Notes under the pieces: model-generated | The model's input: the letters and a program-made list of their open reading frames with translations, nothing else | Told to the model about the DNA's origin: nothing | Database searches by the model: none | IMG/VR virus record: IMGVR_UViG_3300042691_004233 | Span: 1-37,571 of that record | Source: a virus | Length of the DNA stretch: 37,571 bases | Direction: 5' to 3' (one strand) | Position numbers and translations under genes: made by a program | Shown: piece by piece, positions 4,253-32,682 of the stretch | Numbering within the stretch: the first letter of the stretch is position 1 | How the letters are laid out: every line of letters begins with the position of its first letter

Positions 4253-4512
4253 GCATAACCATGCACTATGTAGGTGACGCACATTATTGGGCGTTAGATG
4301 AGCAGTTCAAGGTTGCCTCACTACGAGAAGTTGTCGATCGTCACGAAGAAAACAGAACAGTAGGTGGTGTGAGGTTTATATGTAACAAGTATTTTTGCTA
4401 CATCAACAAACCAAAGAAGCACAGTGTGCAGTTCATGTATGAAATAGATTCATTAGAAGCAGGTATGGAGTGGGTAGTATCTCAACTTGTAGTTCAAAAA
4501 TTAACCAACTGA
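4249..4512 (+). CDS. Hypothetical small protein, probable TTG start
   Basis: An 87-residue frame whose TTG start at 4249 overlaps the previous stop and lies five bases after ATGGAGG, a good Shine-Dalgarno. An ATG at 4261 would give an 83-residue product. The protein is mixed alpha/beta, with aromatic-rich beta-like stretches around residues 40-55 (FICNKYFCYINK), and no recognisable motif. Its content of Val, Tyr and Phe differs from the helical neighbours. It ends 11 bases before the next start. Function unknown. Confidence 0.65.
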   Translation: MSITMHYVGDAHYWALDEQFKVASLREVVDRHEENRTVGGVRFICNKYFCYINKPKKHSVQFMYEIDSLEAGMEWVVSQLVVQKLTN

Positions 4513-13487: not shown

Positions 13488-13537
13488 ACAACATACATAC
13501 GTTTCGCTACACTGACTACCCTACGGAGAACAAACCA

Positions 13538-13918: not shown

Positions 13919-13949
13919 TACAAATCTAACCCCTACAGGAGTTTTAACA

Positions 13950-14849
13950 GTGTCAAACATTATTCCGTTTGAGTCGGGCAATTTGCCTTCTTTCATCACC
14001 AAGCTGAACATCGCTGAGGTCAACGCAGACTTAACATCCCATGCCGGTGCTGGTGGGTTCCCTGTCATCTCGATCAAGGGCAAGGTGTTCGCCATCGTCC
14101 GTGACGGTGAGCGCAAGGTTCTACCCAACCCCAAAGATCCTGACAGTCCTGCCACATCGATCGACGTGGTATTGCTCAAGGCTAACAAGGGTACGAGCAA
14201 GGTGTTCTACGCCAAGGGCTACTCAGAGGGTGCCGAGGGTGTTAAGCCTGATTGCTTCTCCAACGATGGCAGCAAGCCTGATCCTTCAGCCAAAGAACCT
14301 CAGGCCAAGAGCTGTGCGGTCTGCCCTCACAACCAGTGGGGCTCGAAGATTGGTGAGAATGGTTCCAAGGGCAAAGCGTGCCAGGACAGCGTTCGTGTTG
14401 CCGTAGCCACACCCAACCAAGTCAACGAGCCGTATCTCCTCCGTGTGCCGCCTGCATCAATCAAGGCACTGGCTGAGTATGGTCAGATGCTGGCCAAGCG
14501 TGGCGTTGCTTACAACTTAGTAGTTACCAAAGTTGGCTTTGATATGGAAGCTCCTACTCCCAAGCTGACATTCAAGGCTCTAGGGCTGATCGATGAGGCC
14601 ACTTACAAAGAGTGCCAGGAAGTCATCGCCAGCGATGTCGTTGCTCAGATCACGGGTTCCGCTCCGTCGCAAGGAGTAGTAGAATCAGACTCTGCCCCTG
14701 AAGTTGAGCCGGAAGTCCAGGCCCAGGCAGAAGAACCCACTGCCGAGACCAAGAAGAAAGCGGCACCCAAGAAGGCTGAACCCAAGCAGCCCGTTGCAGA
14801 AGTCTCGGTTGACAATATAGATCTAGACAATTTAGATTTCGACGATTAA
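13950..14849 (+). CDS. Putative zinc-containing single-stranded DNA-binding protein
   Basis: A 299-residue protein with a GTG start behind CAGGAG. It has a beta-rich core (residues ~1-220) with four cysteines placed like a zinc site (Cys102, Cys122, Cys125, Cys144; around SCAVCPHNQWGSKIGENGSK). A Pro/Ala/Glu/Lys-rich disordered linker follows (~235-285) and the protein ends in an acidic aromatic tail, NIDLDNLDFDD. An acidic tail after a flexible linker is the hallmark of bacterial and phage SSBs (gp32, gp2.5), which use it to recruit replication proteins. The zinc site resembles gp32 in concept but not in sequence. Position just upstream of the PrimPol-helicase supports SSB, though this is inferred. 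Confidence 0.75.
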   Translation: MSNIIPFESGNLPSFITKLNIAEVNADLTSHAGAGGFPVISIKGKVFAIVRDGERKVLPNPKDPDSPATSIDVVLLKANKGTSKVFYAKGYSEGAEGVKPDCFSNDGSKPDPSAKEPQAKSCAVCPHNQWGSKIGENGSKGKACQDSVRVAVATPNQVNEPYLLRVPPASIKALAEYGQMLAKRGVAYNLVVTKVGFDMEAPTPKLTFKALGLIDEATYKECQEVIASDVVAQITGSAPSQGVVESDSAPEVEPEVQAQAEEPTAETKKKAAPKKAEPKQPVAEVSVDNIDLDNLDFDD

Positions 14850-14879
14850 CTAGGGGTAGTACCGGGCATAAACCCTGAC

Positions 14880-14905
14880 AGCCGGGAAAGACCGGCTTCT
14901 TTATT
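14880..14905 (+). terminator. Probable rho-independent terminator or attenuator
   Basis: The inverted repeat AGCCGG (14880-14885) and CCGGCT (14892-14897) with loop GAAAGA is followed by TCTTTATT. The stem is only six base pairs but GC-rich, and it lies in one of the few intergenic gaps of the early arm, after the abundant-type SSB gene. It may reduce expression of the downstream PrimPol gene relative to SSB. A moderate structure, so partial termination is more likely than complete. Confidence 0.62.
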
Positions 14906-14916
14906 GGGAGCAATAA

Positions 14917-15168
14917 ATGGCATACAAGATCGAGCCACGCAAAGTGGCAGGAGTAGTCGTCGAAGCCAACCAAGCAATCTCAGGTAAGGGCTTCAATCAC
15001 GGAGAAGTAGTAATCGGATTATCAGAGCTTATTGGACGCATCATCGTTGACGCCTCAGCTACCCCTATTCAGGCTCAGGAGTTAGTCAAGATTGTGGAGT
15101 CACACTTAGCCCTTACGCTGAAGCGGGGCGCTGAAGCATCGGAGAAATCCATAATCCATACGGTGTGA
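14917..15168 (+). CDS. Small hypothetical protein upstream of PrimPol
   Basis: An 83-residue protein behind GGGAG (spacing ~6). It is mixed alpha/beta (RKVAGVVVEANQAIS, then LSELIGRIIVDASATPIQAQ) and lacks recognisable motifs. It stops one base before ATG 15170 of the PrimPol-helicase, so the two are translationally coupled and it may be a replication accessory protein. Function unknown. Confidence 0.7.
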   Translation: MAYKIEPRKVAGVVVEANQAISGKGFNHGEVVIGLSELIGRIIVDASATPIQAQELVKIVESHLALTLKRGAEASEKSIIHTV

Positions 15169-15169
15169 C

Positions 15170-18103: not shown

Positions 18104-18144
18104 GTAGAATGCGGTCTGTCATTGGTTTTCCCTCCGTAGAGTTG

Positions 18145-18181
18145 CCCCCGATGCCTGCCCCCAGGATCGGGGGATTTTTTT
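18145..18181 (+). terminator. Strong rho-independent terminator closing the early arm
   Basis: CCCCCGAT (18145-18152) pairs with ATCGGGGG (18166-18173) over a 13-base loop, followed by seven T residues (18175-18181). It ends the plus-strand early transcription unit. The T-tract overlaps the TAA stop (minus strand, 18180-18182) of the last late gene, so the two arms meet with no spacer. On the minus strand the flank lacks a T-run, so it should act mainly on early transcripts. Confidence 0.92.
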
Positions 18182-18314
18182 ACTTCTTGCCCTTCATCAT
18201 GCACTTACCCATGGCCTTGCACTTGGCAGGGTTAGGACAAGCGGAACAAGCTTTAAATGCTGCGGGTTTCTTTGCTGCTGCATCTTTGGCAGCGGGTTTC
18301 TTGCCGTACATCAT
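18180..18314 (-). CDS. 44-residue lysine-rich four-cysteine protein
   Basis: A very small gene reading from ATG 18314 (or the adjacent ATG 18311) to TAA 18180-18182. AGGAG lies seven bases upstream, an excellent ribosome binding site. The N-terminal half carries two Lys-Lys-Pro-Ala-Ala units, and the C-terminal half is KACSACPNPAKCKAMGKCM, giving four cysteines in a CxxCx5Cx5C layout that could bind zinc. Net charge is strongly positive. It is the last gene of the late arm and is too short for most gene callers. Likely binds nucleic acid or is packaged; inferred from composition only. Confidence 0.72.
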   Translation of the reverse strand: MMYGKKPAAKDAAAKKPAAFKACSACPNPAKCKAMGKCMMKGKK

Positions 18315-18333
18315 CACCAATCTCCTAGAAGGT

Positions 18334-18564
18334 TTAACGATACTTCGCCGTTTTTTGCGCTACAGATTTTGGCTGCGGCACAAACTGTTTGCCCTTGCGG
18401 TTGCCTTCCGCCTTGGCTCGATTCGTAGCTGCTTTTTCTGAAGGTGAGAGATTCTTCCAGGCGGCGTCTGGAAGATAACGCTTTTTGCCTTTCGATGGGG
18501 TTCCATCTGACGTACGCCATTTCTGATCGCTCCAGTCTTTGAGAGATTTCTGAGATGGTTTCAT
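18334..18564 (-). CDS. Small basic conserved phage protein
   Basis: A 76-residue protein starting at ATG 18564 in an ATGA overlap with the gene upstream; an extended start at 18627 would overlap that gene and adds a Gly/Ser/Gln-rich stretch, so I reject it. It contains KSLKDWSDQKWRTSDGTPSK, then KRYLPDAAWKNLSPSEKAAT, a pattern I know from several phages. It is Lys-rich and likely nucleic-acid-binding or virion-associated; no function is established. Confidence 0.75.
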   Translation of the reverse strand: MKPSQKSLKDWSDQKWRTSDGTPSKGKKRYLPDAAWKNLSPSEKAATNRAKAEGNRKGKQFVPQPKSVAQKTAKYR

Positions 18565-18743
18565 TTGTAACCACCGCCCTTGGCTTTGTATTCCCGAGCC
18601 AACATCTGAGCCTTGCGCGCCGACCATTCTCCAGGATCACCACCTTTACCACCGGCTTTGATCTTCTCAAAGAGTGATTTACGCATGCCTGGCTTAGTGT
18701 AGTTGCCAGCCTCGTTGACCTTGGATTTAGGTTTGGTAGGCAT
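18561..18743 (-). CDS. Small KAGGKGG-type basic phage protein
   Basis: A 60-residue protein beginning MPTKPKSKVNEAGNYTKP, followed by KAGGKGGDPGEWSARKAQML and a GGGYK tail. Similar short proteins are widespread near phage structural genes. I choose ATG 18743 because it overlaps the preceding stop as TGATG and gives the typical N-terminus; ATG 18755 is an alternative. Highly basic. Function not established. Confidence 0.78.
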   Translation of the reverse strand: MPTKPKSKVNEAGNYTKPGMRKSLFEKIKAGGKGGDPGEWSARKAQMLAREYKAKGGGYK

Positions 18744-19012
18744 CAGCAGTTCCATGCCTTCAAAGACTTGTTAATCCGGGAGTTTGGGTCGCGCTTGGTC
18801 TTCTCGCTGGTGAGTTTCTGCTTCATGCCTTCCATCCGAGCGCAAAAGCTCTTCCTGCGTCCAGTGTCTTCCTTCGTCTTTGGATTTGGCGCGGGAGGTT
18901 TGAGTCCTGGCTTGCCTGGATTCGCGGCGTTGTAGCTCGCCCGACCTTTTGCATTCAATCCCCCCTGGGGGTCTTTGCCTTCTTTTCTCTGCCATGCAGG
19001 TGACTTAGCCAT
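18743..19012 (-). CDS. DUF6321-like small basic phage protein
   Basis: An 89-residue protein beginning MAKSPAWQRKEGKDPQGGLN, continuing KGRASYNAANPGKPGLKPPA, then RRKSFCARMEGMKQKLTS and a C-terminal RINKSLKAWNC. I recognise this as a conserved phage family that I recall as DUF6321, of unknown function and usually near virion genes. It is basic and proline/glycine-rich, with two cysteines near the C-terminal half. It starts two bases after the stop of the gene at 19015. Confidence 0.8.
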   Translation of the reverse strand: MAKSPAWQRKEGKDPQGGLNAKGRASYNAANPGKPGLKPPAPNPKTKEDTGRRKSFCARMEGMKQKLTSEKTKRDPNSRINKSLKAWNC

Positions 19013-19014
19013 GA

Positions 19015-19314
19015 TTACGCATTCACAAAGAAGAAGTCGATTTCCGTGTTTGCTGGCACTACAGCATAAATGCCTTTATCAAACAAAACACCGGGTTCAG
19101 GTATATTAAAAGTGTATGTACCTTTATCCATAGAAGGTATGGCGTATTTAGGCGTAGCCCCCTCAGCAGGTGTAGTAGCAGAATCAAAAAACTGTACATA
19201 CCCAGTAGCATTAGCGGTATGGATTATATGAGTTGCTTTCATAAATCCAGCTTGTGCTGAAATTTGTCCGCTAGTACTACGCCCTACTACTTGAACGTTA
19301 ACTCGGTCAGTCAT
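19015..19314 (-). CDS. Small beta-rich protein next to giant virion protein
   Basis: A 99-residue protein with alternating beta-type hydrophobicity (IIHTANATGYVQFFDSATTP, FFFVNA) and few charged residues, quite unlike the basic proteins after it. The start at 19314 has AGGAG seven bases upstream. The composition suggests a jelly-roll-like structural or head-decoration protein, but no family is recognised. It lies immediately downstream of the giant gene in the late operon. Confidence 0.68.
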   Translation of the reverse strand: MTDRVNVQVVGRSTSGQISAQAGFMKATHIIHTANATGYVQFFDSATTPAEGATPKYAIPSMDKGTYTFNIPEPGVLFDKGIYAVVPANTEIDFFFVNA

Positions 19315-19326
19315 CTTAAACTCCTA

Positions 19327-22300
19327 TCAGGGTAGTGATTCAACAAAGCGACGGTTTGCTTGGGTGTACTGTACTCCACCTGCTGTCTGGCGCTCACGCT
19401 TACGCTGTTCCTGAGGTGCCTTGAGTAAATTAGACAACGGCTGGCGGGTAAACCCACTAGCAACTCGGGCATCCTGCACGCGCTTCCAAGCATCCCTAGC
19501 CTCAGCATTGGCCTCTACATCATTCTCACGATAAGCCTTGGTGTAGTTCCGCTTGATCTCTGCCGTGCGCTTGTCGAAGAATTCCTCTGTACGGATAACA
19601 ACCCCAGTACGGAACTGGCGCTCGGTCAACTTGGTAGTGGGCAGCCCTAATGCCTGGAACATGGCATCAACAAACAAAATCTCATCAGCAGACAGAGACA
19701 CGTCGTTGTTGCGCTGCGTCACACCTTCAGTAGCGAACCTGGCGGCTTTGAGCGTATCGGTAACACCCTTGGGCATGAGATTCTCCACGCCCTTGTAGTA
19801 GTTGCCCTCACCCATGTAGCTGATACCGTCGATGCCACGAGGGGCCAGACCACCGATAAACGGACCCATGGCAGCGGTGACAGTCTCTTGCCAGCCAGCT
19901 TTGCTTAAGTCGAAATCTGCATACGGCAAGATGGAGAGCATCTGACCCGCACCGATCTTACCGGACACGTCGACTCCCATTTGAGCTGGCAAACCTTTTG
20001 TCATTAAAGTGCCAATCTCATCTCCAAAATATCTGCGTAATTCAAGTTCGGGCTCAAATGGTTCATCCTCGTCACCGAAGAGCATCCCGTACAGGGCAGC
20101 GGCAGCTGCAAATCCAGGCAAGCCCATGATGCCACCAGCCACGCCAGCATGAGTAAAGACCCACAACAGGGTGTAACGAGCAGCCCGTTTGTCCTCTGCA
20201 GTAGCACCTCTCGTGGCGTCGTTGAGCAGACGGATCATCATGGAGAGCTGGATCAACTGGAACTTACGGAACTGAGTTACCAACCGGCCGATACCCTTAC
20301 GCATGAACCGAGGAGCGTTGGCACCTGAGTAGTCACCATGGGTTACTCGAATCACCTTGTCGGCGTAGTCCCGTGCAGCAGATTCAGATTCTCTATTGCC
20401 AATGGCTAGGCGATAGGCAGCAACAGCCGTGCTGACGCGGTTGATAAGTTCCGTTTTTTCTGCGATAGCTTGCAGATAGCCAGACGCCTTACCCAGCTTC
20501 CTAAACGCACTATCCTCGCCAGAAGTAAACTCTCCCAAATCCCTGTCCAGAGTGATCTGGATACGGCCTCGCTTGACCAAATCCTCCACCATACCCCGTA
20601 CGTCCTCAGGCAGGTTAGAGAAGTCAACTTGCTCGCCTGGGCGCCTGACCGAGATATTCTGCAGTAACTTGCCCACTTCTTTGTACGCAGAGAACATGGC
20701 TTTGAGCGACCGACCCTCACCGTGCTTACCAGCCATAAACGGCACTGACATCATCAACGGCTGAGTCATGTTCTGCAGATAGTAGGCCGGGCTAGTCAGA
20801 AGCATCCAGAGCGACGTTGTTGCCATCGCCTTGTTCAGCACCGGAGACGGGTCGTAGTCAAACCCCATCGCATGCCGACGGACAAACTCATTGAAGTACC
20901 GGCGAGCCTCAGGGTCGTTCTTCGACTCATTGCTCATGTTGCGGAGTTGCTCGTAGATCTTGCCAGTGTTGCTAAGCGACCCAATGAAATGAGCAGAAGC
21001 CCTGCCTTGTGTGGCAAAAGCGCGCATCATGTCGTCGTCGGCACCAGCAATACCAAGTCTACGGTTCGTAGCGTGCATGATCGACTGGTTGCTAAGCATC
21101 TGGGTCTGCAGATCGAGGATCATCTTGCGGACACCGCGAACTACCACGTCCTTATCAGATGACTTCAGGTTTTCATCGACGAGGTTGCGCAACCGAGCGA
21201 ACACTTGGTTCAGATCGTTGCCACCGTACAGACTTTCCTGGGCGCTCTTCTCGAACGGATCTGTAACCTGCATGTCGGGAAACTGACGACGCAACTGATT
21301 AGCAATAACCTGACCTTCACCAGCGGTTTCAGCAAATCCAACATAGTAGTGCTGAGGATCCGTTTGCAGGTCGGTAAGCGTCTTATTAGCCAGAGCCCGT
21401 GCAGAACCTTGGGAGTTGCGGTAGATTTCTTCAGCATCCAGCAGGCGTTGTGACTTGCCAACAACCACATAGTTACCAAAACGCTTGAGCGGTGCGTAGG
21501 GCTTCTTACCTTGCAGGGCGAACAACTTCTGGTAGTTCTTGAGCGTTTGGTCTTTGGCTGCCTGCAGTTCTGCCAGTTCTTTCTCGTTGCCCTTGGCACG
21601 AGCTTCTTCAATCAGCGCATCAAACTCAGAGTTAGTGTTATCCCTAAGGGTACGCTTCATGTCCTGTAGCACATCGTAGCCATGCTTGAAGACATCCTTG
21701 ATGACTTTCTGCGCCTCTTTGGGGAAAGCCCTGAACCGTGCCTCTAGTGCAGGGTCAGGCGTAACGTCGGACTCTTCCTTAATCTTGTATCCCCACTTGC
21801 CAGACATCGTTGAATCTTTGATGAAGGCATTGACGCTATTGGGGCCAGTACCACGGACTTCGGCAGGCAGTGCATCGTAGTCATCCAGGATAGCCTTGAC
21901 CCGCAGTTCGTACTCGGTCTGGATAACCTGTTGCTCGTTGTAGAGCTGCACGAACCGAGTGACAGACTTGAGCTTACCCTTGGCCATGTCCACCAGATCT
22001 TGCGTGAAGGCGAACGTAGGCGCTGCTTTAGATGCCCAGTCCTTCAGCGTGTAGTAAATCTGTGTGGCTTGCGGCTGCAGTGACTCAGGCAGCTTACCGA
22101 TAGTGGCATCGGCACGTCTATTTCTTAAGACTTTTGGGGCTTGTCCTTTTGCTGCTTCTCCAGGAACTGCCCCCCGCCCCGCAGCGACCCCCTCGGCTCT
22201 ACTATCGAACGAAACTTCTTGGCCGAGGTCTGTGGCTTGGAAGTCTGTGGTTTCTTGTACACGAGCAAGTACCTCCTTCATAAATTTGGCTGTGGCGGGA

Positions 22301-25300
22301 GCTTTTTGCTCAAGAATCCGCTGACCAACAGGACCAGAAGTATAGAACGCCCAGATCTGCGCAAACAACTCTTGCCGCATCTCGTTAAGCGATAACCCCT
22401 TTACTTCCTTCGGATCAAATGGGTATCCGAAGATTGCTTTAGCTGCTTCATCGGTGTTGTACAACTTGGACATCTCAATGGCTACTTCACCCATGGGTAC
22501 GAGCTTGCCATTAACCAACCGCAGATTAAGTCGAGGGTCCGAGGAATATGTGTCTTGTCCCTGCACTGCTTGGTCTACAGCGTGTCCGATCTCGTGTGCC
22601 ATGGTCCACATGGCGTTTCCACGGCTAGCTGCTATGTCTTGACGAAGAACAATAGCGACCTTCTGATCGATGTTGGTAATGATGCCGTCCCAGTCTACGT
22701 TGGGGTTGTAGCTGACGAAGAACTGCCCCACCGCATTGAACGCATTACCGATGCCTAAGGCATTGAACCGATCACGCAGCGCAGAAACACCCTCGTAAGC
22801 CTCTGCCATTTCATCGAGCGAGGCATCTTCAATCATCAGATTGTCTTTGGAGCCAGTGACTTCTTGCACTTTTTCCTCAGCACGGCGACGCATCGCGTTC
22901 TGTTTGGGGGTCTTAGCCGGCTGGGGGGCAGTGGGAGCAGCTGGCATACTGAACGTCTCAGGACTATCTGGCAGCACAAACACCATGCCACCATTTAGCT
23001 TGTTGATGTTCGGGATGATCTTGTCCAGGAAAGTCTTGTGGCTCGTGTTGATGCAGCCATAGCTCACCCGGTTGTCCTTTACATCAGGAGAAGCCAGACG
23101 CTCAAGCCGCTTCTCGTTGACATTGCCAAGGTAGGCAGCGTGGATTGCAATCGTGCCAGTGCCGTCGTTTGTGCCAACAAGGTCAAGGGTGTATCCACCA
23201 GCGTATGTACCGCCATCACGAAGCTTTACGGCCTCAAGCGCGTACTTACCTGCGGGGGTGACTTTTTTGCCACCTTCAAGCGACGAAGCAGAACCCAGTA
23301 CATCACCAACATCTCGACCGTAGAGCGCGGTATCTTGGGCAATAACATTGCCATCCTTATCGAAGACGTGAATCATGCCGTTGGGCTTGTCTGCAATGAT
23401 GAACCCCTTGCCGCTAATCTGTGCGGTGGCTGCCATCTCTGTAAAGACGGACTGAGCCAGGGGAGACATCTTCGAGCGAGCTGACGTTGGCAGTTCTATG
23501 GTTATCTGCTTAGCCTTGGCGTAGGCTTCTGGCAGGTTGAAGTCGAATCCATTTTGCTGCACCGTCGGGTTAAATACGATGGCAACTGCCACAACCGCTT
23601 TGGCCAACTGAGCAATGATCGCCCGTATACGTGCGGCTACAAACTCTGCACCTTTGTTGGTGTAGTTAGCGATGTCTTGGCTGAGCTTGCTTAAGAACGC
23701 ATCGGTGCCAGCCTTGGCCTTGTAATGTACCTGCAGGACTTGAACCTGCTCATCAGTCAGCGTATTGGACTTCTCAAGCATCAACCGGCGCTCGGCAGGG
23801 GCAATCTCCCTAGCCTCTACATCAATGACCTTGGATTCATCGAGAATCTGCTCAAGGTTGCGTACGTTGATGTCTGCCGGGTTATCGATGGCAAGTAAGC
23901 TGTCGCGCTGAGCAACAGTCAATGCACCCCACACGGGGATCAAGTCAGGAGCAAACGCCCTGAGCTCGTTGTACTTAGCCTCTACCTGTTCGGCTTTGGT
24001 AAGAGCAACTGCAGCGGGTGTCTCCTTAGCGGTAGGGGTAGGCGTTAACTTAGGAGCCTGTGTCGGCGTTGGAGCTGCTTTAGTTGTAACTACTACTTGC
24101 CCTTCGGTTTTGGCTTCACCCGTTGCGGCAGGTTTTTCGGCACCCCGTACTTCTTGGCCCACTTTTTCGCCACCTCGGGCTCTTGGCTGAACAGGTACTT
24201 TTGCTGTTGTTTGCTTTTGAACGGCACGGGGCTCTCCTTTTGCAGTGATGGGTTTCTTAGCGGCCTGTTTCTCCGCTATATCTTCAGTAACTTCTAGCCT
24301 GTCGTTGAGTTCCTTAACGATCCTGTCGCCAAAGAATTCATCGTCGTTGAGGTAAGCGTCGATCGCTAGAGTCTCAAGCTGCTTCTCGGTAAGCTCTGCT
24401 ATGTCATTTTTTTCTCTTTGCAGGGCCTCGTTCGCCTGGTCTATCTGTTTACGGGTAGGCTTCTGCCTTGCCTCAATTGCATCGAGGGCTTGGGATATAC
24501 GCAAAAACTTCTGATTGTTCGTCTCAGCAGCCTTATTTACTTCCTGCAGACTAGCAGTAGCCCGACCCCTAGCAGTGATGGCAGCATCTTCAGCGCCAAG
24601 CTCAGCCTCATCAATCGTCAACTCTTCTACTTCTGCTTCAGTAATCCGGCCTTCCGTCTGCTCTGCCTTAATCGAATCCATTAGGGAAGTCAGATACTGC
24701 GTTGCTTCGGCATCAGACAGGCGTAACTCAACCATGGCTGCTTTGATCGCATCGGTCAGCTTCTGCTTATCTGGGCCAAGCAAGTCACGAATGGCTCGGT
24801 TCCAGTCCTTCTTAATGGTATCGATGCTGCGGTTATACCGCTTAGCCAGCTCAGCAACAGACTCTTCCCGTTTGGCCTGAGGCGTGCCGTACATCTCCAA
24901 AATGAAGCTACGCTTTGCAGCCTGTTTGTCTGCCGGATAAAGCCGGGTTAAAGCGAAGTCTAGAATCTGCTGGGCAGATACGTCGTTACGGATCAGCTCC
25001 TGCTCTTGCGCCAGGGCCTCAACAATGGCACGGTCAGTACGATCGTTCTCAACGGCCACAAGCCAGACTTCTTGCAGGGCTGGATCAAGATCATCGAACC
25101 GGATAGCAATCTCGAACCGTTTGGCTATGCCATCGAACAGCTGCTTGCCAAGAGTTACGTCTTCTTCGGCTCTAGCACGGACTTGGCGAGGTTTGCCAGC
25201 TTGTTGAGCCCCGACAGCTGCCGCTGCAGGGCCTGCTCCCGTTCCTTCGGTTCCAGTTGTTCCAGTCCCAGCCGCTCGACCCACATCTGCTTGCGTGCCT

Positions 25301-27351
25301 TCGCCAGTTCTTCCTGCAGATCGAAGGCCACTTACTTCTCCCCCTTGATCCGTTCTTTGACCTGATACCGTACCGACATTTGCAGTAGGTTCTCCTGTGG
25401 GGGTGACAGTGGCACCATCCCGTGTTCGACCATCTCCTGTTGGGACATTTTGGAGGCCAGCCGGTCCGCCAGGGATACCTCCTGTGAGGAGGGATTGAAC
25501 CGATCCAAGATCAGTCCGTCCTGCTGTACCAACTGTTGCATCTGTGCCTGCTTGCTCTGATACTGCTCCCACCCGGGTAGCGGCTTGCTGTTGCGGTTCA
25601 TTTGGGGTTCCTTCCAAAAGTTGTGTGTACAACGGGGACGATTGGCCAGTCAACGCCGTATAGATGGCATCAAGCTGCTCAACCATGGGGTTAGTTGCGG
25701 GTTTACCCTGACGTGCTAATGCTGCAATCTGGTCATCGATCCGAGCCAAAGCTTCTTGCGTCGAGCCAACATCCACAAGACCATACTTCTGAGTAGCCTT
25801 GTTCAGCGCAGTAACAACTGGCTTGGCGTTGGCGATATTGCCACTGAGCTTAATTACGTTGGCTGCTAGGAAGGCGCCATTGAGCGTACGCTGGACAGGA
25901 CTTAACTGCCGGTCTGCTTGAGCCAACCCTTCGACGACAGCCTTAACCGTCGGCTGCCCATAAATGCGAGCACCGCCCAGATCCCAGGCATTGCTCATGT
26001 TTGCAGCTGGAGCCAGACCGTATGTTCGAGCTGCGGTCAGATATTCTTCTTGTGAAACGGGCTGCGACTGAGCCGACTGTACCCGCGCAGTAGGTTGCGC
26101 AGATGGTTGTGCTGTACCGGCAGGTGCCGATGGCGGCGTCGTTGCAGGACGACCTGGTACCGCAGTATCAACCCGACCGCCCATTTGACCAAACTGTTGA
26201 TACGCTTGCTGTTGCTCCGGGGTAACAAAGGCCTCTCCTCTGGAAGTAACTGAAATAACATCAGGCAGCATAGGCCCAGTGTTGATCGCTTGACGAATTG
26301 CATCACCGCTAGGAGTACGGGAGCCCTGCAGATTATCGTTAGCCCCACTGAGCATGCTTCCAGGCTGCTTGTCGATCGGAGTGATCGTGCCAATGGCTGC
26401 GCCAGTCATACCGCCAAGTGCTGCACCTAGTGCTGCAGAACCAAGAACCCCACGCATGGGGTCGATACCATCGATGTACTGGCCTGCGGCTACGTTGGCA
26501 GATAGCTTGGTTGTACCTTCTTCAGCAAACTCTTGGGCTGCTTCACTACCGGCCATGCGCAGAATACTTCCCTGACGACTACGAGCGGCGACGGCCTTCT
26601 CAGCACCGAACCTACCAGCGATAGCACCCACAATGGCAGGGGCTGGCATAGCCAGACGAGCTGCTTCCGTAGCTTGACGATCAGCCTCTACAGGGTCAAC
26701 ACCTTGCTCGATCAGTCCTTCATAGACTTGACCGTAGGCATCACCACCAGCCTCACCAGCGCCAAGAGCGGCACCAATGCCCATACCAGCACCAGTACCC
26801 ACACGCTCAATAGCTTTGCGCTCAGCAGCAACGGCTGCCTGACGAGTAATCGGGCCAACATCGCTAGCACGGGCAACGGCACGCTCACCAACACCCAGAC
26901 CACGAGCGGCGATCTGCGAGCCACGAATTGCTCCCATGGGGATAGCAAACGAACCGACAGCCTGAGACAGAGCCAGTGCAGGGTTCTCTACGATGTAACT
27001 GCCAACACCTTTGAGGGCTTGCATGCCCCCAGCTTCGATATCTTCACCGAGGCGTTGTTTGGCTTGACGGGCTACGTCACTCTGGCTTTCTTCACCCTGC
27101 TTGATTAGATCTTCGATCTGGTTAGCTAGCTCAGTACCAGGAACAGCAAAATCGATAAGGGCCTTACCACCACCCAGGATCGCATTGGCCGCCTCAATTA
27201 CATAGTCGTTGGCTGCGCCTAAGAAACCACGAGATGGAGGTTTAGCAGGTGTAAAACGTCCGGTTTCTAATTGGTCCCAGACACTTGTAGGCGTAGCAGT
27301 GCCTTGCCTTGCAGAAGTAGCCTGTTGTTCAAGTTGATCCCAGACCGACAT
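19327..27351 (-). CDS. Giant polyvalent-type internal virion protein with L,D-transpeptidase and zincin domains
   Basis: A 2,674-residue protein, the largest in the window. By residue: 2-8 and 23-29 carry a duplicated SVWDQLE; ~90-345 has Gly/Ala-rich hydrophobic segments; ~811-857 an HTH-like stretch (VAELAKRYNRSIDTIKKDW); ~860-1080 coiled coil; ~1080-1130 a Pro/Thr linker; ~1241-1262 a hydrophobic segment. Residues ~1310-1465 match a YkuD L,D-transpeptidase, with His1404 and VSYGCIN (Cys1433). Residues ~1500-1700 carry AHEIGHAVDQ (His1586, Glu1587, His1590), a zincin. Residues ~2296-2376 resemble large polyvalent protein-associated domains (LPD38-like), followed by a hydrophobic segment at ~2389-2424. 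Such proteins are thought to be packaged and delivered with phage DNA. The transpeptidase may act on host peptidoglycan during entry; that is inference. Confidence 0.88.
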   Translation of the reverse strand: MSVWDQLEQQATSARQGTATPTSVWDQLETGRFTPAKPPSRGFLGAANDYVIEAANAILGGGKALIDFAVPGTELANQIEDLIKQGEESQSDVARQAKQRLGEDIEAGGMQALKGVGSYIVENPALALSQAVGSFAIPMGAIRGSQIAARGLGVGERAVARASDVGPITRQAAVAAERKAIERVGTGAGMGIGAALGAGEAGGDAYGQVYEGLIEQGVDPVEADRQATEAARLAMPAPAIVGAIAGRFGAEKAVAARSRQGSILRMAGSEAAQEFAEEGTTKLSANVAAGQYIDGIDPMRGVLGSAALGAALGGMTGAAIGTITPIDKQPGSMLSGANDNLQGSRTPSGDAIRQAINTGPMLPDVISVTSRGEAFVTPEQQQAYQQFGQMGGRVDTAVPGRPATTPPSAPAGTAQPSAQPTARVQSAQSQPVSQEEYLTAARTYGLAPAANMSNAWDLGGARIYGQPTVKAVVEGLAQADRQLSPVQRTLNGAFLAANVIKLSGNIANAKPVVTALNKATQKYGLVDVGSTQEALARIDDQIAALARQGKPATNPMVEQLDAIYTALTGQSSPLYTQLLEGTPNEPQQQAATRVGAVSEQAGTDATVGTAGRTDLGSVQSLLTGGIPGGPAGLQNVPTGDGRTRDGATVTPTGEPTANVGTVSGQRTDQGGEVSGLRSAGRTGEGTQADVGRAAGTGTTGTEGTGAGPAAAAVGAQQAGKPRQVRARAEEDVTLGKQLFDGIAKRFEIAIRFDDLDPALQEVWLVAVENDRTDRAIVEALAQEQELIRNDVSAQQILDFALTRLYPADKQAAKRSFILEMYGTPQAKREESVAELAKRYNRSIDTIKKDWNRAIRDLLGPDKQKLTDAIKAAMVELRLSDAEATQYLTSLMDSIKAEQTEGRITEAEVEELTIDEAELGAEDAAITARGRATASLQEVNKAAETNNQKFLRISQALDAIEARQKPTRKQIDQANEALQREKNDIAELTEKQLETLAIDAYLNDDEFFGDRIVKELNDRLEVTEDIAEKQAAKKPITAKGEPRAVQKQTTAKVPVQPRARGGEKVGQEVRGAEKPAATGEAKTEGQVVVTTKAAPTPTQAPKLTPTPTAKETPAAVALTKAEQVEAKYNELRAFAPDLIPVWGALTVAQRDSLLAIDNPADINVRNLEQILDESKVIDVEAREIAPAERRLMLEKSNTLTDEQVQVLQVHYKAKAGTDAFLSKLSQDIANYTNKGAEFVAARIRAIIAQLAKAVVAVAIVFNPTVQQNGFDFNLPEAYAKAKQITIELPTSARSKMSPLAQSVFTEMAATAQISGKGFIIADKPNGMIHVFDKDGNVIAQDTALYGRDVGDVLGSASSLEGGKKVTPAGKYALEAVKLRDGGTYAGGYTLDLVGTNDGTGTIAIHAAYLGNVNEKRLERLASPDVKDNRVSYGCINTSHKTFLDKIIPNINKLNGGMVFVLPDSPETFSMPAAPTAPQPAKTPKQNAMRRRAEEKVQEVTGSKDNLMIEDASLDEMAEAYEGVSALRDRFNALGIGNAFNAVGQFFVSYNPNVDWDGIITNIDQKVAIVLRQDIAASRGNAMWTMAHEIGHAVDQAVQGQDTYSSDPRLNLRLVNGKLVPMGEVAIEMSKLYNTDEAAKAIFGYPFDPKEVKGLSLNEMRQELFAQIWAFYTSGPVGQRILEQKAPATAKFMKEVLARVQETTDFQATDLGQEVSFDSRAEGVAAGRGAVPGEAAKGQAPKVLRNRRADATIGKLPESLQPQATQIYYTLKDWASKAAPTFAFTQDLVDMAKGKLKSVTRFVQLYNEQQVIQTEYELRVKAILDDYDALPAEVRGTGPNSVNAFIKDSTMSGKWGYKIKEESDVTPDPALEARFRAFPKEAQKVIKDVFKHGYDVLQDMKRTLRDNTNSEFDALIEEARAKGNEKELAELQAAKDQTLKNYQKLFALQGKKPYAPLKRFGNYVVVGKSQRLLDAEEIYRNSQGSARALANKTLTDLQTDPQHYYVGFAETAGEGQVIANQLRRQFPDMQVTDPFEKSAQESLYGGNDLNQVFARLRNLVDENLKSSDKDVVVRGVRKMILDLQTQMLSNQSIMHATNRRLGIAGADDDMMRAFATQGRASAHFIGSLSNTGKIYEQLRNMSNESKNDPEARRYFNEFVRRHAMGFDYDPSPVLNKAMATTSLWMLLTSPAYYLQNMTQPLMMSVPFMAGKHGEGRSLKAMFSAYKEVGKLLQNISVRRPGEQVDFSNLPEDVRGMVEDLVKRGRIQITLDRDLGEFTSGEDSAFRKLGKASGYLQAIAEKTELINRVSTAVAAYRLAIGNRESESAARDYADKVIRVTHGDYSGANAPRFMRKGIGRLVTQFRKFQLIQLSMMIRLLNDATRGATAEDKRAARYTLLWVFTHAGVAGGIMGLPGFAAAAALYGMLFGDEDEPFEPELELRRYFGDEIGTLMTKGLPAQMGVDVSGKIGAGQMLSILPYADFDLSKAGWQETVTAAMGPFIGGLAPRGIDGISYMGEGNYYKGVENLMPKGVTDTLKAARFATEGVTQRNNDVSLSADEILFVDAMFQALGLPTTKLTERQFRTGVVIRTEEFFDKRTAEIKRNYTKAYRENDVEANAEARDAWKRVQDARVASGFTRQPLSNLLKAPQEQRKRERQTAGGVQYTQANRRFVESLP

Positions 27352-27365
27352 AAGCTATCACCCTT

Positions 27366-28871
27366 TTAGCGCTGTTGTGCTTGGTATTGCCCGTATCTAC
27401 GTTCCCACGCCGCATAATTTGGATTTGGTATGCCGGTATCGACAATACCACCTCTAGTTTGCTGTTGTATAGTCCGAGGAGGCGCTGGTGGAATATTAAG
27501 AGCTGCGCTAGGAGGTGCTCCTCTACCACCCGTAGCAGGGATTGCAGATCTACCCCCTTTAGCGGGTGTAGTAGTTTTTTGTGGGCCGGGCCATGGTGTA
27601 TTTGGATATTTATTTTCAAAAGCAGTAATTTCTGCTGATGTATATGGCTTACCAGTAATCGGATTAGTGCCCGAACGAGCTGCAGCTACAATTTCAGGAG
27701 GAGCTACACCCGCCCCTCTAAGTATTTTGTCTGTTGTCGGGTTCAATATACCAACCGTGCCAAGAACTTCTTCCCCATCTTTAGTGATTTTTCCAGTTTT
27801 GACGTAGACCTCCGGGAACAAGGCCTCCATTTGAGCCGCCATAGATCGAATAGCATCTGCGTTCTTAACAGGATCTTTAAGAAGATTTTGAAGCTCGGCA
27901 TTCATATCGTCCATCCGCTTAAGCTTGCCTGTTTCGTATCCTGCTTTTGCCGCTCTTGCGTTTGACTCCCTAATATTTGCTCTGATTTCATCAACCCTAA
28001 ACGGTTGCAAAGCTGCTTCTCGCGCCTCTCGACTTTCATCTCGCGCATCTCGTTTTTCACTCAGGGCAAGATTACGACGTGCGATATCCATCGTCTGCGA
28101 AGTTTGCAGCAGAGTTCCAAAATCTTGTATCGAAGTAGCAAACTGCGCTGCTCCTTGCCTGAACATATTGTTGGTGTACTGAGCGATGCCATCTTCTGCA
28201 GCGGTCTGGAGATTGTCGTACTGCCCCATCTTCCTGCCACCCATGTAGGCTTCATAAACTTGTTTGCCACCACCAACACTGACAGGGCGAATATCAATAC
28301 CTAGTTTTTTAGCGCTAGCCATAAACCCTGCGGGGTCTGTATTAGCCTGTTCTGCCATCCCTTGAAGTTTGCCAAGTTCAGCGGTAAACGAAGTCTGCCA
28401 TTGTTGGAACTCTTTTTTCTTCTTGCTCGTGTTGAGTACATCCTCAAGCTGCAAACCTTTTAGCGTGATATCAAACGCTTTCTCAGGATCAACAGCCATA
28501 CCCCGCTCAAGAATACGTAGCATCGCATCTTGTCTACTAACTGGAGTAGTAGAAGCAGGGGCTGTAGTGGCTTGAGGACGTGTTATTCCTTCTTGAATAC
28601 CGGCAGTCTGTCGTAGCGAAGGAGTTTCTTCTGTAGCAGGAATAGCCGACATTTGTGGCGGTGCGCTAACAGCTCCTTGGATTGCCCCTGTAGATGTTTG
28701 CGGTAGCTGTCCTACACGACCAAGTTCTTCTGCAGTGATATCTCGAAACTGTTGTGCTCTTGCTCGGCGCTCACGAAAATCTTCAGCTTCTAACTGCGCA
28801 CGCTCTAAGGCGGTCAGCCCTTGGATAGTTCCTAGGAACCCTCTGGTAAAACCTTCAGCCGCGTATGCCAT
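27366..28871 (-). CDS. Coiled-coil/proline-rich virion protein
   Basis: A 501-residue protein. Residues ~1-45 form an Arg/Glu-rich helix, ~55-110 is Pro/Thr/Ala-rich and disordered, ~250-330 a long charged coiled coil (EKRDARDESREAREAALQPF), and ~420-490 a Pro/Gly-rich tail. No enzymatic motif is visible. Placed between the giant protein and the S74-domain protein, it is likely an internal virion or ejection protein. It starts two bases after the S74 gene's stop, and its own stop is 15 bases before the giant gene's start. Confidence 0.75.
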   Translation of the reverse strand: MAYAAEGFTRGFLGTIQGLTALERAQLEAEDFRERRARAQQFRDITAEELGRVGQLPQTSTGAIQGAVSAPPQMSAIPATEETPSLRQTAGIQEGITRPQATTAPASTTPVSRQDAMLRILERGMAVDPEKAFDITLKGLQLEDVLNTSKKKKEFQQWQTSFTAELGKLQGMAEQANTDPAGFMASAKKLGIDIRPVSVGGGKQVYEAYMGGRKMGQYDNLQTAAEDGIAQYTNNMFRQGAAQFATSIQDFGTLLQTSQTMDIARRNLALSEKRDARDESREAREAALQPFRVDEIRANIRESNARAAKAGYETGKLKRMDDMNAELQNLLKDPVKNADAIRSMAAQMEALFPEVYVKTGKITKDGEEVLGTVGILNPTTDKILRGAGVAPPEIVAAARSGTNPITGKPYTSAEITAFENKYPNTPWPGPQKTTTPAKGGRSAIPATGGRGAPPSAALNIPPAPPRTIQQQTRGGIVDTGIPNPNYAAWERRYGQYQAQQR

Positions 28872-28872: not shown

Positions 28873-30003
28873 TTAGATCACCATGCTGTAGTTAACGGCC
28901 TTAAAGCCATCTGCGGTTGTGATAACTGCTTCAGGATTGAACAACTCAACTTCCTGCGCCAAGACCCCTCGGTATCTGCCATATCCAGACTCTGCCTTGA
29001 ACGCTGGCTTGTACTCAAACTCATAAACGGTCAGCCCGTTAGGTAGAGTTCCGACAGGAACGATGTTTTCTTTGGCACGAATATCAGAACGAGCGTAGTA
29101 AGCACCCGCACCAGCCAAGGCTCCGAGCGTACTTCCTTTTGCTGCTGCTCTTTGTGCAGCTGCGCTTTCCTGTGCGTTGTAGAGATTGATGTCTGCGTTG
29201 TACTTAGAAACACCCATTTGACCAACACTCTGCCACCCCTGCATCGGAAGTCCGTACCCCTGCTGCATACTAGATCCTTGTGCTTGTACCGTACTAATAG
29301 GCACAGCAGCGGCATTCATAGCAGCACCACCAGCAGACAACGCCAGACCCGTCGAAGTGGCCTGGTTACTAAACTGACCTTGAGCCACAGCAGCGGCGTC
29401 CATCTTTTTCGCCCAACCTAAAGACTCAGCAGCCGTCCGTGCGCGATTAGCAGCGGCAGCCTCCATAGCGGCAGTATCAATTCCAGTAGCCCGACGCATA
29501 CCCTGGTAGCGGCCAGAAGTAGGATCAATACCATAGCTTCGCTGCATGAGTTCCATGTCACGCTCTTCACGAGCCGTAGCCGAACGAATATCACCCAGGG
29601 CCAAAGCAGACTGACGCTCGATGTCCTCTGCAGAACCAGCCTTCTCAGCCTCAGCAAACAACTGTTCTTGTAGGGGAAACCCGTACTTCTGGTAGCGCTC
29701 CATGCCTTCTTTGGCAGCGGCGATCTGAATGTTCTGCAGTTCACGGTCAAGAGCAAACTGTTCATCAGCACGCGCAGTAAGACGCTCAGACTCTAATTTG
29801 AGCTGAGGCCAGACTTCTGTCTTCCACTGGTTGAGGTACTCTTTGGAGATATCGGCAAGCTCGCGCTGGGCGATGCCAATATTGGGATCAGGAGCTGGGG
29901 CAGAACCACCACCACCGCCTTTACCGCCCTCAAGCGTCATACCACCGAAAGGTCGGTGTTGAAATGCCCGTTCGGGCAACATGGAGAAGTGGTCGTATCT
30001 CAT
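28873..30003 (-). CDS. Virion protein with C-terminal S74 (intramolecular chaperone) domain
   Basis: A 376-residue protein. Residues ~40-235 are helical, Ala/Glu/Gln-rich (internal virion-like), with a Gly-rich segment near residues 27-33. The C-terminal ~75 residues match the peptidase S74 domain: ARSDIRAKENIVPVG (Ser306 and Lys311, equal to the Ser-Lys pair of endosialidase chaperones), YRGVLAQEV and FKAVNYSMV at the end. S74 domains drive trimer assembly and then cut themselves off, usually in tail spikes. Here the partner sequence is helical and not fibre-like, which is unusual. It overlaps the GNAT gene by four bases. Confidence 0.85.
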   Translation of the reverse strand: MRYDHFSMLPERAFQHRPFGGMTLEGGKGGGGGSAPAPDPNIGIAQRELADISKEYLNQWKTEVWPQLKLESERLTARADEQFALDRELQNIQIAAAKEGMERYQKYGFPLQEQLFAEAEKAGSAEDIERQSALALGDIRSATAREERDMELMQRSYGIDPTSGRYQGMRRATGIDTAAMEAAAANRARTAAESLGWAKKMDAAAVAQGQFSNQATSTGLALSAGGAAMNAAAVPISTVQAQGSSMQQGYGLPMQGWQSVGQMGVSKYNADINLYNAQESAAAQRAAAKGSTLGALAGAGAYYARSDIRAKENIVPVGTLPNGLTVYEFEYKPAFKAESGYGRYRGVLAQEVELFNPEAVITTADGFKAVNYSMVI

Positions 30004-30422
30004 TTCTTAATCCCTAAGAACCTGCATTCCTCACGAAGCATCCCGTACACAATCATGTCAGTCCCATCATCGTTGGCTCTTCGCATGACGCCTTCTCGCT
30101 TAAACCCCAAGTGTTCGTCAAACCGCTGAGCTTCATAGTTGTCTGCCCTGACAAGTCCTGTGATTCTGTTACATTTAAGTTGTAAGAATGGATATGCGAA
30201 ACAGCGCCACAAATACTCTTTAGTCATCCACCGCTTACCTGGTACTGCTGCTACGTGCATCGAGATCGACGGGCCGGTGTAGAGATTAAAAACTACCCCT
30301 GCTATCAGCTCGCCATCTTCTTCAAGCCCGATCCCGCTGGCACTACCGAAATCAAACTCGTTTACCTGTCTACCAACCCAATCAATTACGCGTTCGTTCT
30401 GCCCGTAAATGACTGTTTTCAT
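30000..30422 (-). CDS. GNAT-like acetyltransferase of virion cluster
   Basis: A 140-residue protein with the GNAT layout: a strand-rich first half (GELIAGVVFNLYTG), an acceptor-loop region and the C-terminal DNYEAQRFDEHLGFKREGVM segment, the acetyl-CoA-binding helix and conserved Gly-Phe-x-x-Glu-Gly found in many GNATs. Phage relatives often sit among structural genes. The classic Q/RxxGxG/A acetyl-CoA loop is not obvious, so enzymatic activity is uncertain. It is coupled to the S74 gene by an ATGA overlap. Confidence 0.8.
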   Translation of the reverse strand: MKTVIYGQNERVIDWVGRQVNEFDFGSASGIGLEEDGELIAGVVFNLYTGPSISMHVAAVPGKRWMTKEYLWRCFAYPFLQLKCNRITGLVRADNYEAQRFDEHLGFKREGVMRRANDDGTDMIVYGMLREECRFLGIKK

Positions 30423-30457: not shown

Positions 30458-30664
30458 TTACTGTCCGTCAAAATTGATCCTGGCTGCTATCTCATTGATT
30501 TTGGCTATGATCTGAGCAGTCGTTGCATCTGAGGCCAACGGCCGGATAGTGCCAATACCAGGACGAGCACCAGTAATCAGCTCAATGTTTTCCTTCATGG
30601 CAGTCAGAGTCTGCTGTGTTGCCCGGTCAAGGATCGGTATGGCTGGGATACCGGGCTTTCTCAT
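30458..30664 (-). CDS. Small phage structural-cluster protein
   Basis: A 68-residue protein beginning MRKPGIPAIPILDRATQQTL, with ELITGARPG in the middle and an IAKINEIAARINFDG helix at the C-terminus. Small proteins of this pattern occur next to phage stabilisation/tail genes. It starts in an overlap with the large structural gene (ATGA at 30661-30664). Function unknown. Confidence 0.72.
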   Translation of the reverse strand: MRKPGIPAIPILDRATQQTLTAMKENIELITGARPGIGTIRPLASDATTAQIIAKINEIAARINFDGQ

Positions 30665-32682
30665 TCCGGCACCTCTTTGAGCTCAGTAACCGTGCTAGCC
30701 ATGGCCAGAGACTGCACCCGAATGTTTCCAGTAATTAAGAGCTCCCACTCGTCATGGCGCTTCTCAGCCGGCAACCGTACTACGCTTGTAGAAGTTACAC
30801 CGACCTCATGCACCAGAACGCCATCACCGTAGAGGAAGATGTTGACCGAACGAGTCTCGCCCAGTGCCGGGATATCGTTAAGAATAGAGCCGTTAAGCGT
30901 GAAAGTGTTCACTAACGAAGAGTTCAGTACACCCTGCAGATTGTTGCCCTGAGTCGTCCAAAGAGCTTGGTTCTGCGCTATAAGTGCTTGAACGATCTGG
31001 TTGTAGTTTGCCGTGTCTTGGATTTCACCGAAGTCCGCCCGTACTTTGATAGCGCCGAAATGCGACGGCATGCCGAAGATAAACTTCTTGGACTTCCACT
31101 CGAACAACGTAGTATTAACCGGGTCAGCGTCGATCTGGTAGATCTTGTTATCCAGCTGAGACACGCAGAAGAACTCAGTCGTGCTGCGGTCAATGAAGAT
31201 GGCCGTGGCGTCAAAGTCAAACTCAATAAGCGGCGGAATATCACCACGAGTTATGACGATGGCGTAAGTACCGGTGTTCGTCGTGTAGAAGCCGAAGTAC
31301 TGGTTGTTATATATCGCCCCGAGCATCGTGCCAGGGTTCAGTAGCGTCCAGTCATCCCGTGTATAGAGCGGAGTGCTAATAACATCCGTACCCGCAGGGC
31401 CTACCGATACAAGTCCGTTCTGGCTTGCGTACATGATGCCGTATTGATCTGAAGCAATCGACCGCTTGGAGACGCACGGCTGGAAGATGGGCAGTTTGGC
31501 CTGAGATACCGACAGCGGAGAAGAACCAGTCAACAGATATGGCTGCGTCTGGGTCATTACCACCAGAGTAGTATCGTAAACCCCTAGACCAACCACGTTC
31601 GAGTCGATAACCAGGGTGTAAAGATCCGGCCAAGCATGGGGGTAGTATGGCTCACTGAACCACACCTCGTTGTCCCGAAACGCAGCCAGCATACCGTTAG
31701 GCATAGCCACAAGCCCTTTAAGATCATCGGGCGGGGGGTTCCAGTTCTGAGTCTGCAAAAGACTGCCAAGATCCAACACCGGCTTAGTGTCAGAGTAGGA
31801 AGTCTGGGTCAGAGGAATCTCATCGACAAGCTGATACGAGACAGTCGTCGCTCCGACAACCGTGCGGTAGATCCGCCGATGAGTTATGTTGTATGTGCCA
31901 CTGGGTAGTTTTGCAGCGACAACGACGTTGCCAGAAGTAGTGGCCGAAGGCGCCTGCACCGTGTAAGTATTGGCCCCAGTGTTTGTGATTGTGTACCAGC
32001 CATCGGGAGCAGTACCAGATGTGAAGTCCAAATACACCACCTGCCCGGTATCCATACCGTGGACAGACTCAGTAATCGTGATCGTCGTGCCAGTCTGAGA
32101 GTACGTGCCACTTGTGGTAAACCCTGATACCGTGACTGTCGCTCCCGTGGCGTTGGTAGTGATAGTGGCTGCTGGACTGGGGGCAGACTCCTCAGAAATC
32201 GAGCCGAACTGAGAAACAAAAGTGTAGAGATATGCCCGGTCTTCGGGAGTAGTACCGCCTGCGGTAGTAAGCGTGGGGGCAGTTGTGGGGGAAGGAACCC
32301 CCATGCTTAGGTATTTGTTTGGGAACGGCAGCGTGCCTGTTCCGTTAGTGGTTGCCAGGTTCCAGTTAGTCTTCTTTGGCTGGCCTGACCCCATGTAATA
32401 CACACGAGAATCTGCATCGTCGAGAACCGGGCCTTTGACTACATCTACATCTGTATTCCACTCAAGCCAGCGAAACAAATTGCCGGTGGGGTCATACAGC
32501 TTGTAGATCGACCGGACATCAGGGGTAGCCGGCGTGTATTCCTCGGTAGCTTGCTGCCAGGGGCGCAATTCCAAAGAGTTGAGTTTTACGTTCCTTGCGA
32601 TCTGGGCTTGCGTAGGCGCAAGTTGGGTGGGGCTAGTCCGTGGAGACAACCCAGAGAATCGTTCTAAGAATATGACTGCCAC
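30661..32682 (-). CDS. Large beta-rich virion structural protein (tail/stabilisation-like)
   Basis: A 673-residue protein from a GTG start at 32682 behind AAAGGG. It begins MAVIFLERFSGLSPRTSPTQ and has IARNVKLNSLELRPW near the N-terminus and FRWLEWNTDVDVVKGPV further on, features I know from podophage virion proteins. Residues ~175-275 are Thr/Ser-rich and Ig-like, apparently an inserted beta-sandwich. The rest has repeated beta blades (DNEVWFSEPYYPHAWPDLY), perhaps a propeller. Its place upstream of internal virion genes suggests a tail nozzle or DNA stabilisation role, but I cannot assign it to a specific gp family. Confidence 0.8.
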   Translation of the reverse strand: MAVIFLERFSGLSPRTSPTQLAPTQAQIARNVKLNSLELRPWQQATEEYTPATPDVRSIYKLYDPTGNLFRWLEWNTDVDVVKGPVLDDADSRVYYMGSGQPKKTNWNLATTNGTGTLPFPNKYLSMGVPSPTTAPTLTTAGGTTPEDRAYLYTFVSQFGSISEESAPSPAATITTNATGATVTVSGFTTSGTYSQTGTTITITESVHGMDTGQVVYLDFTSGTAPDGWYTITNTGANTYTVQAPSATTSGNVVVAAKLPSGTYNITHRRIYRTVVGATTVSYQLVDEIPLTQTSYSDTKPVLDLGSLLQTQNWNPPPDDLKGLVAMPNGMLAAFRDNEVWFSEPYYPHAWPDLYTLVIDSNVVGLGVYDTTLVVMTQTQPYLLTGSSPLSVSQAKLPIFQPCVSKRSIASDQYGIMYASQNGLVSVGPAGTDVISTPLYTRDDWTLLNPGTMLGAIYNNQYFGFYTTNTGTYAIVITRGDIPPLIEFDFDATAIFIDRSTTEFFCVSQLDNKIYQIDADPVNTTLFEWKSKKFIFGMPSHFGAIKVRADFGEIQDTANYNQIVQALIAQNQALWTTQGNNLQGVLNSSLVNTFTLNGSILNDIPALGETRSVNIFLYGDGVLVHEVGVTSTSVVRLPAEKRHDEWELLITGNIRVQSLAMASTVTELKEVPE

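Follow-up and report, generated by a model that had tools for sequence, protein, structure and literature searches.

A domain with the predicted fold of L,D-transpeptidases (YkuD superfamily) is embedded in a giant polyvalent protein encoded in the window, i.e., the entire 37,571-base virus record analyzed here, which may be partial. The fold of this domain, its catalytic pair, the purifying selection acting on it and the membership of the giant in a virion protein family were established by computation. The embedded module is predicted, with somewhat better than even confidence, to be a competent enzyme that is ejected as part of the giant, lodges at the site of entry and transpeptidates or hydrolyzes peptidoglycan stems. 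As a more specific reading, we tentatively suggest that a widespread podovirus-like lineage uses a membrane-tethered L,D-transpeptidase in its ejected giant to re-seal or reinforce the host wall around the entry channel.

To our knowledge, the wall enzymes described in virions to date all cleave glycan or peptide bonds. Wall repair as a strategy of entry, if true, would be opposite in sense to these lytic enzymes, and the occurrence of a conserved transpeptidase-type domain, its active site strongly selected, in about 30 or more distinct giants suggests that entry may need editing, sealing or anchoring of the wall besides cutting. The question becomes testable by asking whether the chemistry of the wall where the phage enters changes in the first minutes after adsorption. 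The finding further brings to light a poorly annotated family of exported, L,D-transpeptidase-like proteobacterial proteins, which standard profile libraries hardly detect.

Wall-enzyme domains as such are known in polyvalent proteins, where lysozyme, SpoIID-like and D,D-peptidase domains have been described as wall-directed parts (PMC5512222). Neither "YkuD" nor "transpeptidase" appears in the main text of that paper, and both are absent from a survey of jumbo phages (PMC7824862). Article texts of the open-licence literature yielded no publication that deals with YkuD domains of ejected phage proteins and, as far as we found, an L,D-transpeptidase-type domain in polyvalent proteins had not been described. 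In BFVD, whose names are derived from UniProt, one podovirus protein from a metagenome carries an automatically annotated L,D-TPase domain, and a polyvalent-type protein has a related domain with 41% identity. Such sequences are therefore already in databases, and it is their description that was not found.

Sequence and predicted fold of the YkuD-type domain

The initial annotation of this DNA had proposed a YkuD layout within a giant protein, a motif built on His1404 and Cys1433, and a hydrophobic segment about 50 residues ahead of the domain. The motif positions proved exact, as His1404 could be read directly in AIHAAYLGN (starting at residue 1402) and Cys1433 in NRVSYGCIN (starting at residue 1427), 29 residues apart. 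The layout was confirmed by profile searches, by AlphaFold/Foldseek analyses and by conservation, and the hydrophobic segment was located at residues 1242-1260. The motif itself stood with regard to order, a His followed by S-x-G-C, but it is not of the textbook type. The canonical L,D-transpeptidase motif, HXX14-17(S/T)HGCh (PMC9638812), is not matched by the window domain, in which the spacing is 29 and the nucleophile lies in SYGC. YkuD/L,D-transpeptidases such as LdtB, LdtMt1-3 and B. subtilis YkuD share with this domain the AF2/Foldseek fold, the order of the motif, a TPxG segment and a hairpin where the domain begins; they differ from it in having a His-Cys distance of ~17-20 and SHGCxR (GCIR), whereas the window domain has SYGCIN and is located in a giant phage protein.

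When the isolated domain was searched with Pfam, the YkuD profile (PF03734) aligned with its residues 28-150, scoring 22.0 bits (E=2.6e-4) against a curated cut-off of 23.4; with the full-length giant, a YkuD match was absent. The same profile matched 5 of 14 phage domains at E<=1, the best of them at 9.6e-5. An independent HMM was built from 24 bacterial secreted relatives and zero phage sequences, and the 477 stop-to-stop ORFs of at least 40 aa in the window served as the search space. This bacterial-only HMM matched residues 1307-1463 at E=4.7e-27; the runner-up ORF scored E=2.2 and the best reversed-ORF control E=1.2. Because the relatives had come via the phage alignment, the test is independent in sequence and not in the choice of relatives.

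A PDB sequence search with the window fragment gave zero matches. When PDB was searched with the phage or the phage plus bacterial alignment, NHL-repeat proteins appeared through summed weak hairpin matches, and this reading was dropped because almost no single domain passes alone. L,D-transpeptidases of solved structure were also hit by the alignment search, in short tail matches (E~0.9) that were too weak for use. Compared by hhalign with a small, mixed collection of canonical LDTs, the domain aligned over its initial ~50 columns only (prob 79-89), short of the Cys, and the fold assignment thus rests on AlphaFold2/Foldseek and Pfam.

AlphaFold2 models were obtained from 14 phage rows (pLDDT 80.6, pTM 0.81) and from 58 phage and bacterial rows (pLDDT 91.8, pTM 0.88). 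Comparison with YkuD structures had been suggested along with the initial annotation, and the significant PDB matches of both models were exclusively to L,D-transpeptidases and L,D-carboxypeptidases. For the second model, YkuD-fold enzymes accounted for all nine Foldseek matches at E<=0.001 and for the top 18 overall. The enzymes matched included LdtMt1/2/3, B. subtilis YkuD, V. cholerae LdtA and E. faecium Ldt; Pgp2 and Csd6 were matched by the first model and DpaA by the second, and the lower-probability matches included DpaA and Tlde1a (the latter with the first model, E 0.26-0.33). The best E value was ~1e-4 and the TM-scores were modest (0.37-0.49, normalized by query length), which indicates that the fold is right and that the domain has diverged. 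On the strength of these models, the domain is assigned to the YkuD superfamily with an L,D-transpeptidase fold. This fold is also that of the L,D-carboxypeptidases Csd6 and Pgp2 and of DpaA, which detaches Braun lipoprotein from peptidoglycan.

Conservation and relatives of the domain

Besides the window, the domain was found at 36 loci, on viral contigs and one Geobacteraceae MAG contig. Scans of IMG/VR gave 14 and later 35 loci, and the genome collection added the MAG contig (L054); some of the 36 are near-copies of one another. At every locus the domain is inside a giant ORF, and the complete giants are 2,373-4,424 aa long. The Cys is kept at all 36 loci and the His lies 29 residues ahead of it, except in L051 (28); the His of L049 was missed by the automatic pattern and was read from a 36-row alignment (the window and 35 loci, with one truncated locus omitted). 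In this alignment, identity reaches at least 97% at H1404, S1430, G1432, C1433 and N1435 and likewise at T1365-P-A-G1368 and G1349-D1350, and the H, S, G and C of the motif are invariant across 58 phage and bacterial sequences. His1404 and Cys1433, on whose presence in homologues the initial annotation had made its proposal depend, were both kept in every homologue inspected. A further scan yielded more distant YkuD giants (L147, L148, L156, L160 and L161).

Values of dN/dS were 0.03-0.13 in six close pairs, which indicates strong purifying selection. These data bear on the possibility that the domain is dead or has no peptidoglycan substrate, its YkuD fold being kept as a binding or structural module. 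The non-canonical spacing and residues could be read in this way; however, five motif residues (His, Cys, Ser, Gly and Asn) are kept at the above level across otherwise dissimilar giants and are conserved in bacterial relatives, and together with the selection observed they make this reading very improbable. We predict with high confidence an enzymatically active domain of the cysteine transpeptidase type.

Many of the giants at the 36 loci resemble the window protein in blastp mainly or solely in the conserved module that ends with the YkuD domain (Table 1). This module is found with two kinds of C-terminus, PLxRFG (L016, L147, L148 and L160) and phrog_14770/616 (L006 and L045). A YkuD-bearing giant was not found among named phages by tblastn, in which a 300-aa domain fragment gave only a weak match to Stenotrophomonas phage Summit, and megablast of the window against phages gave zero matches. 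The MAG contig L054 (JACABD010000021.1) encodes a YkuD giant of 2,821 aa and also carries homologues of the virion and replication genes of the window; it is therefore probably a phage contig that was binned into, or is integrated in, the MAG.

The hydrophobic segment of the window giant has a Kyte-Doolittle value of 2.12, the highest peak of the protein. Most aligned giants have a hydrophobic segment at the equivalent site ahead of YkuD, in a layout consisting of an R/K-rich stretch, ~12-19 moderately hydrophobic residues, often F-N-P, a ~35-residue linker and the YkuD helix. In many homologues the segment is only moderately hydrophobic, and in several it is under the cut-off. By eye, the segments of L142, L147 and L156 resemble signal peptides, with small residues where cleavage might occur. 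The YkuD-less giants JC1 gp69 and Pavtok gp27 have no mid-protein segment at the cut-off used, their only one being near the C-terminus. In the free-standing relatives from bacteria, an export-type segment at the N-terminus precedes the domain, and the export segment and the enzyme may have been captured together by the giants.

A genome scan detected at least 552 loci related to the YkuD domain. Among the matches listed, the best relatives, L054 apart, show ~30-37% identity to the window domain and belong mainly to Burkholderiales and Sphingomonadales, and also to Gammaproteobacteria and Thermodesulfobacteriota. Most bacterial relatives inspected are free-standing, exported proteins of ~200-280 aa with a His-Cys spacing of 29, and the family motif is RLASPT..DNRISYGCINVP (e.g., L055, L072 and L106). 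L055, L058, L072, L106 and L129 had zero above-cut-off matches in Pfam or NCBIfam, plasmid-borne members are annotated as either L,D-transpeptidase or hypothetical, and no characterized member of the family was found. This family and the window domain have in common the long His-Cys loop, an invariant Arg, the motif and the upstream hydrophobic export segment; the bacterial proteins differ in being free-standing, in bacterial genomes, and not part of a giant. The phage domain was probably derived from this divergent exported proteobacterial L,D-transpeptidase-like family. The 1,3-cross-linking LDTGo family was also considered for its overlapping bacterial hosts; its reported H245 and C264 are 19 residues apart, not 29, and the domain was therefore left out of LDTGo.

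The same family is represented by stand-alone phage genes of ~115 aa in Xanthomonas phage XacN1 (ORF390, annotated as L,D-transpeptidase) and Stenotrophomonas phages DLP_5, DLP_3 and Summit. Unlike the domain of the window giant, these are separate proteins without the N-terminal half of the domain. Stand-alone genes are located at 1504-1854 (L168), 1447-1794 (L167) and 4001-4270 (L002).

The giant protein and its virion operon

The window giant matched the PLxRFG family NF032893 at E=1.4e-98 and 331 bits over residues 1998-2654 (NCBIfam cut-off, 100) and the DarB-like family phrog_10089 at E=8.8e-59; its PLKRFG motif is encoded at 21475-21492. By these profile matches, it is a member of the polyvalent/PLxRFG (DarB) family. 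It is similar to the polyvalent PLxRFG/DarB giants of Bcep22-like podoviruses in size, operon-closing position, PLxRFG C-terminus, a putative zincin-like HExxH domain and modular enzyme domains, and differs from them in a transpeptidase-type module with a hydrophobic segment, which replaces or joins lytic domains.

The putative zincin-like domain is ~150 residues past the YkuD Cys; HEIGH occupies residues 1586-1590, and a weak Pfam zinc-protease match (E=1.4e-4) was below the cut-off. A downstream HExxH motif is also present in many, not all, YkuD giants. At residues 1584-1693, Pfam gave a match whose name refers to anthrax lethal factor; it was read as the generic zincin fold that Iyer et al. 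described in polyvalent proteins (PMC5512222) and does not point to a toxin. The giant also has a helix-turn-helix-like stretch, which is kept in the ortholog L004 and had no family matches of weight.

Table 1. Features of the window discussed in the text
Feature	Position	Strand	Residues of the giant	Remarks
Giant polyvalent (DarB/PLxRFG-type) protein gene	19327..27351	minus		2,674 aa, frame open throughout; closes the minus-strand virion operon
C-terminal DarB-like/PLxRFG region	19357..21750	minus	1868-2665	
Putative zincin-like metallopeptidase domain with HEIGH	22273..22602	minus	~1584-1693	Hub domain of polyvalent proteins
Conserved module: helical/hydrophobic segment, linker and YkuD	22954..23766	minus	~1196-1466	
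YkuD-type (L,D-transpeptidase fold) domain	22963..23433	minus	1307-1463	
Codon TGC of Cys1433	23053..23055	minus	1433	Predicted nucleophile in SYGCIN
Codon CAC of His1404	23140..23142	minus	1404	Predicted catalytic base
Hydrophobic, signal-anchor-like segment IRAIIAQLAKAVVAVAIVF	23572..23628	minus	1242-1260	N side positive
Helix-turn-helix-like stretch ELAKRYNRSIDTIKKDWNRAIRDLLG	~24742-24850	minus	~835-870	
501-aa gene directly upstream of the giant	27366..28871	minus		Positional counterpart of JC1 gp68 (510 aa, virion-associated)
376-aa virion protein, JC1 gp64 homologue	28873..30003	minus		phrog_8003, 1.7e-48; 34% to gp64
140-aa acyltransferase, JC1 gp63 homologue	30000..30422	minus		phrog_4470; 45% to gp63
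673-aa internal virion/head-closure protein, JC1 gp61 homologue	30661..32682	minus		phrog_511, 5.6e-142

Homologues of gp61, gp63 and gp64 of Burkholderia phage JC1 are present in the order of JC1 and are followed by the 501-aa gene, for which a sequence match was not found, and then by the giant. By gene content and order, this is a virion operon of the Bcep22-like podovirus type. The gp64-like protein ends in an endosialidase-chaperone (Peptidase_S74) domain, whose usual place is in tail fibres.

JC1 gp69 (4,515 aa) matches phrog_10089 at 1e-291; a direct blastp link between it and the window giant (P0001) is absent, and the two are connected via the phrog_10089 profile. Mass spectrometry of CsCl-purified JC1 virions identified gp69 from 51 unique peptides and also detected gp61, gp64 and gp68 (PMC9144972). 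DarB/PLxRFG membership, synteny with JC1 and the gp69 proteomics make virion carriage likely, and by homology and synteny we consider it very probable that the YkuD-bearing giant is carried in the virion. The initial annotation had spoken of a giant virion protein, which agrees with the virion-type family and the JC1 synteny; the protein is better termed a polyvalent ejected protein.

Possible roles at the site of entry

In the mechanism that we propose, the podovirus would package the giant polyvalent protein and eject it with the DNA. At ejection, the hydrophobic segment would insert into the inner membrane so that its positive N side faced the cytoplasm and the YkuD module came to lie in the periplasm where the phage enters. 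Once activated by His1404, Cys1433 would attack the meso-DAP3-D-Ala4 bond of a peptidoglycan stem there to form an acyl-enzyme. Resolution of the acyl-enzyme by the amine of a neighbouring stem would produce a 3-3 cross-link, and hence local re-sealing or reinforcement around the channel; alternatively, water would resolve it. Ejection, topology, the peptidoglycan substrate and transpeptidation over hydrolysis are steps that we infer, the last being the weakest. Action of the domain on peptidoglycan in the periplasm at entry is probable; should it act there, we lean slightly towards transpeptidation rather than hydrolysis or anchoring. The initial annotation had suggested that the host wall could be edited or patched during entry, which is a reasonable proposal.

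Ldt enzymes are known to attach Lpp to peptidoglycan. An acyl-enzyme, or transpeptidation onto lysines of the giant itself, could similarly fix the ejected protein to peptidoglycan and hold a trans-envelope channel. Tethering of the domain inside a large ejected protein would suit this function, and some L,D-transpeptidases attach proteins to peptidoglycan, e.g., OutB in Dickeya (PMC12274547); the idea is, however, a purely inferential one, and we consider it unlikely.

Re-sealing has also to be compared with an effector function. Tlde1a, a D-amino-acid-exchanging T6SS effector (PMC9638812), resembles the window domain in that a YkuD-type enzyme is delivered to a different cell and works in its periplasm (for the window domain, by prediction); it differs in subfamily, is not retrieved by sequence and is a weak structural match. 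In a Tlde1a-like manner, D-amino-acid exchange or stem editing by the phage domain might, once the phage has entered, interfere with wall synthesis in the host or with rival phages. The related fold of Tlde1a, found low in the first Foldseek list, its described exchange activity and the standing of polyvalent proteins as conflict proteins are consistent with this function. Yet the match is weak, Tlde1a is absent from the listed second-model matches, and the phage domain is nearer in sequence to exported bacterial proteins; an effector function is thus highly unlikely.

If water resolved the acyl-enzyme, the domain would act as an L,D-carboxypeptidase or as an L,D-endopeptidase, trimming or cutting stems and so loosening the wall or the outer-membrane tether for the ejected proteins. 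We regard such hydrolysis as possible, if rather doubtful. The matches to Csd6 and Pgp2 with the first model and to DpaA with the second point in this direction, as do breaching as the usual job of virion wall enzymes (PMC5512222) and the annotation of the related Pavtok giant with a lytic transglycosylase. On the other hand, Csd6- or DpaA-specific features were not found in the domain, and a mild point against hydrolysis comes from a YkuD giant of E. coli, next to which a muramidase gene is located, so that breaching may be covered there.

The latter giant is encoded by plasmid pSTEC648_2 (CP061838.1; L142, region 12579-20226), which is circular, 60.5 kb long and looks like a phage-like element, with holin, lysozyme and giant genes. 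Megablast of its giant gene against complete E. coli genomes, and of the region against phages, gave zero matches. A tree sets this giant apart from the other 37; as one clade survives the AU test (p=0.457), separate captures of the domain by giants are not claimed. The protein has 2,318 aa; its YkuD domain is nearer the bacterial family and follows a stretch that resembles a signal peptide. Immediately upstream of the giant gene is a separate gene for a GH104 muramidase, an endolysin is also present, and the YkuD domain is therefore not the sole wall enzyme in pSTEC648_2.
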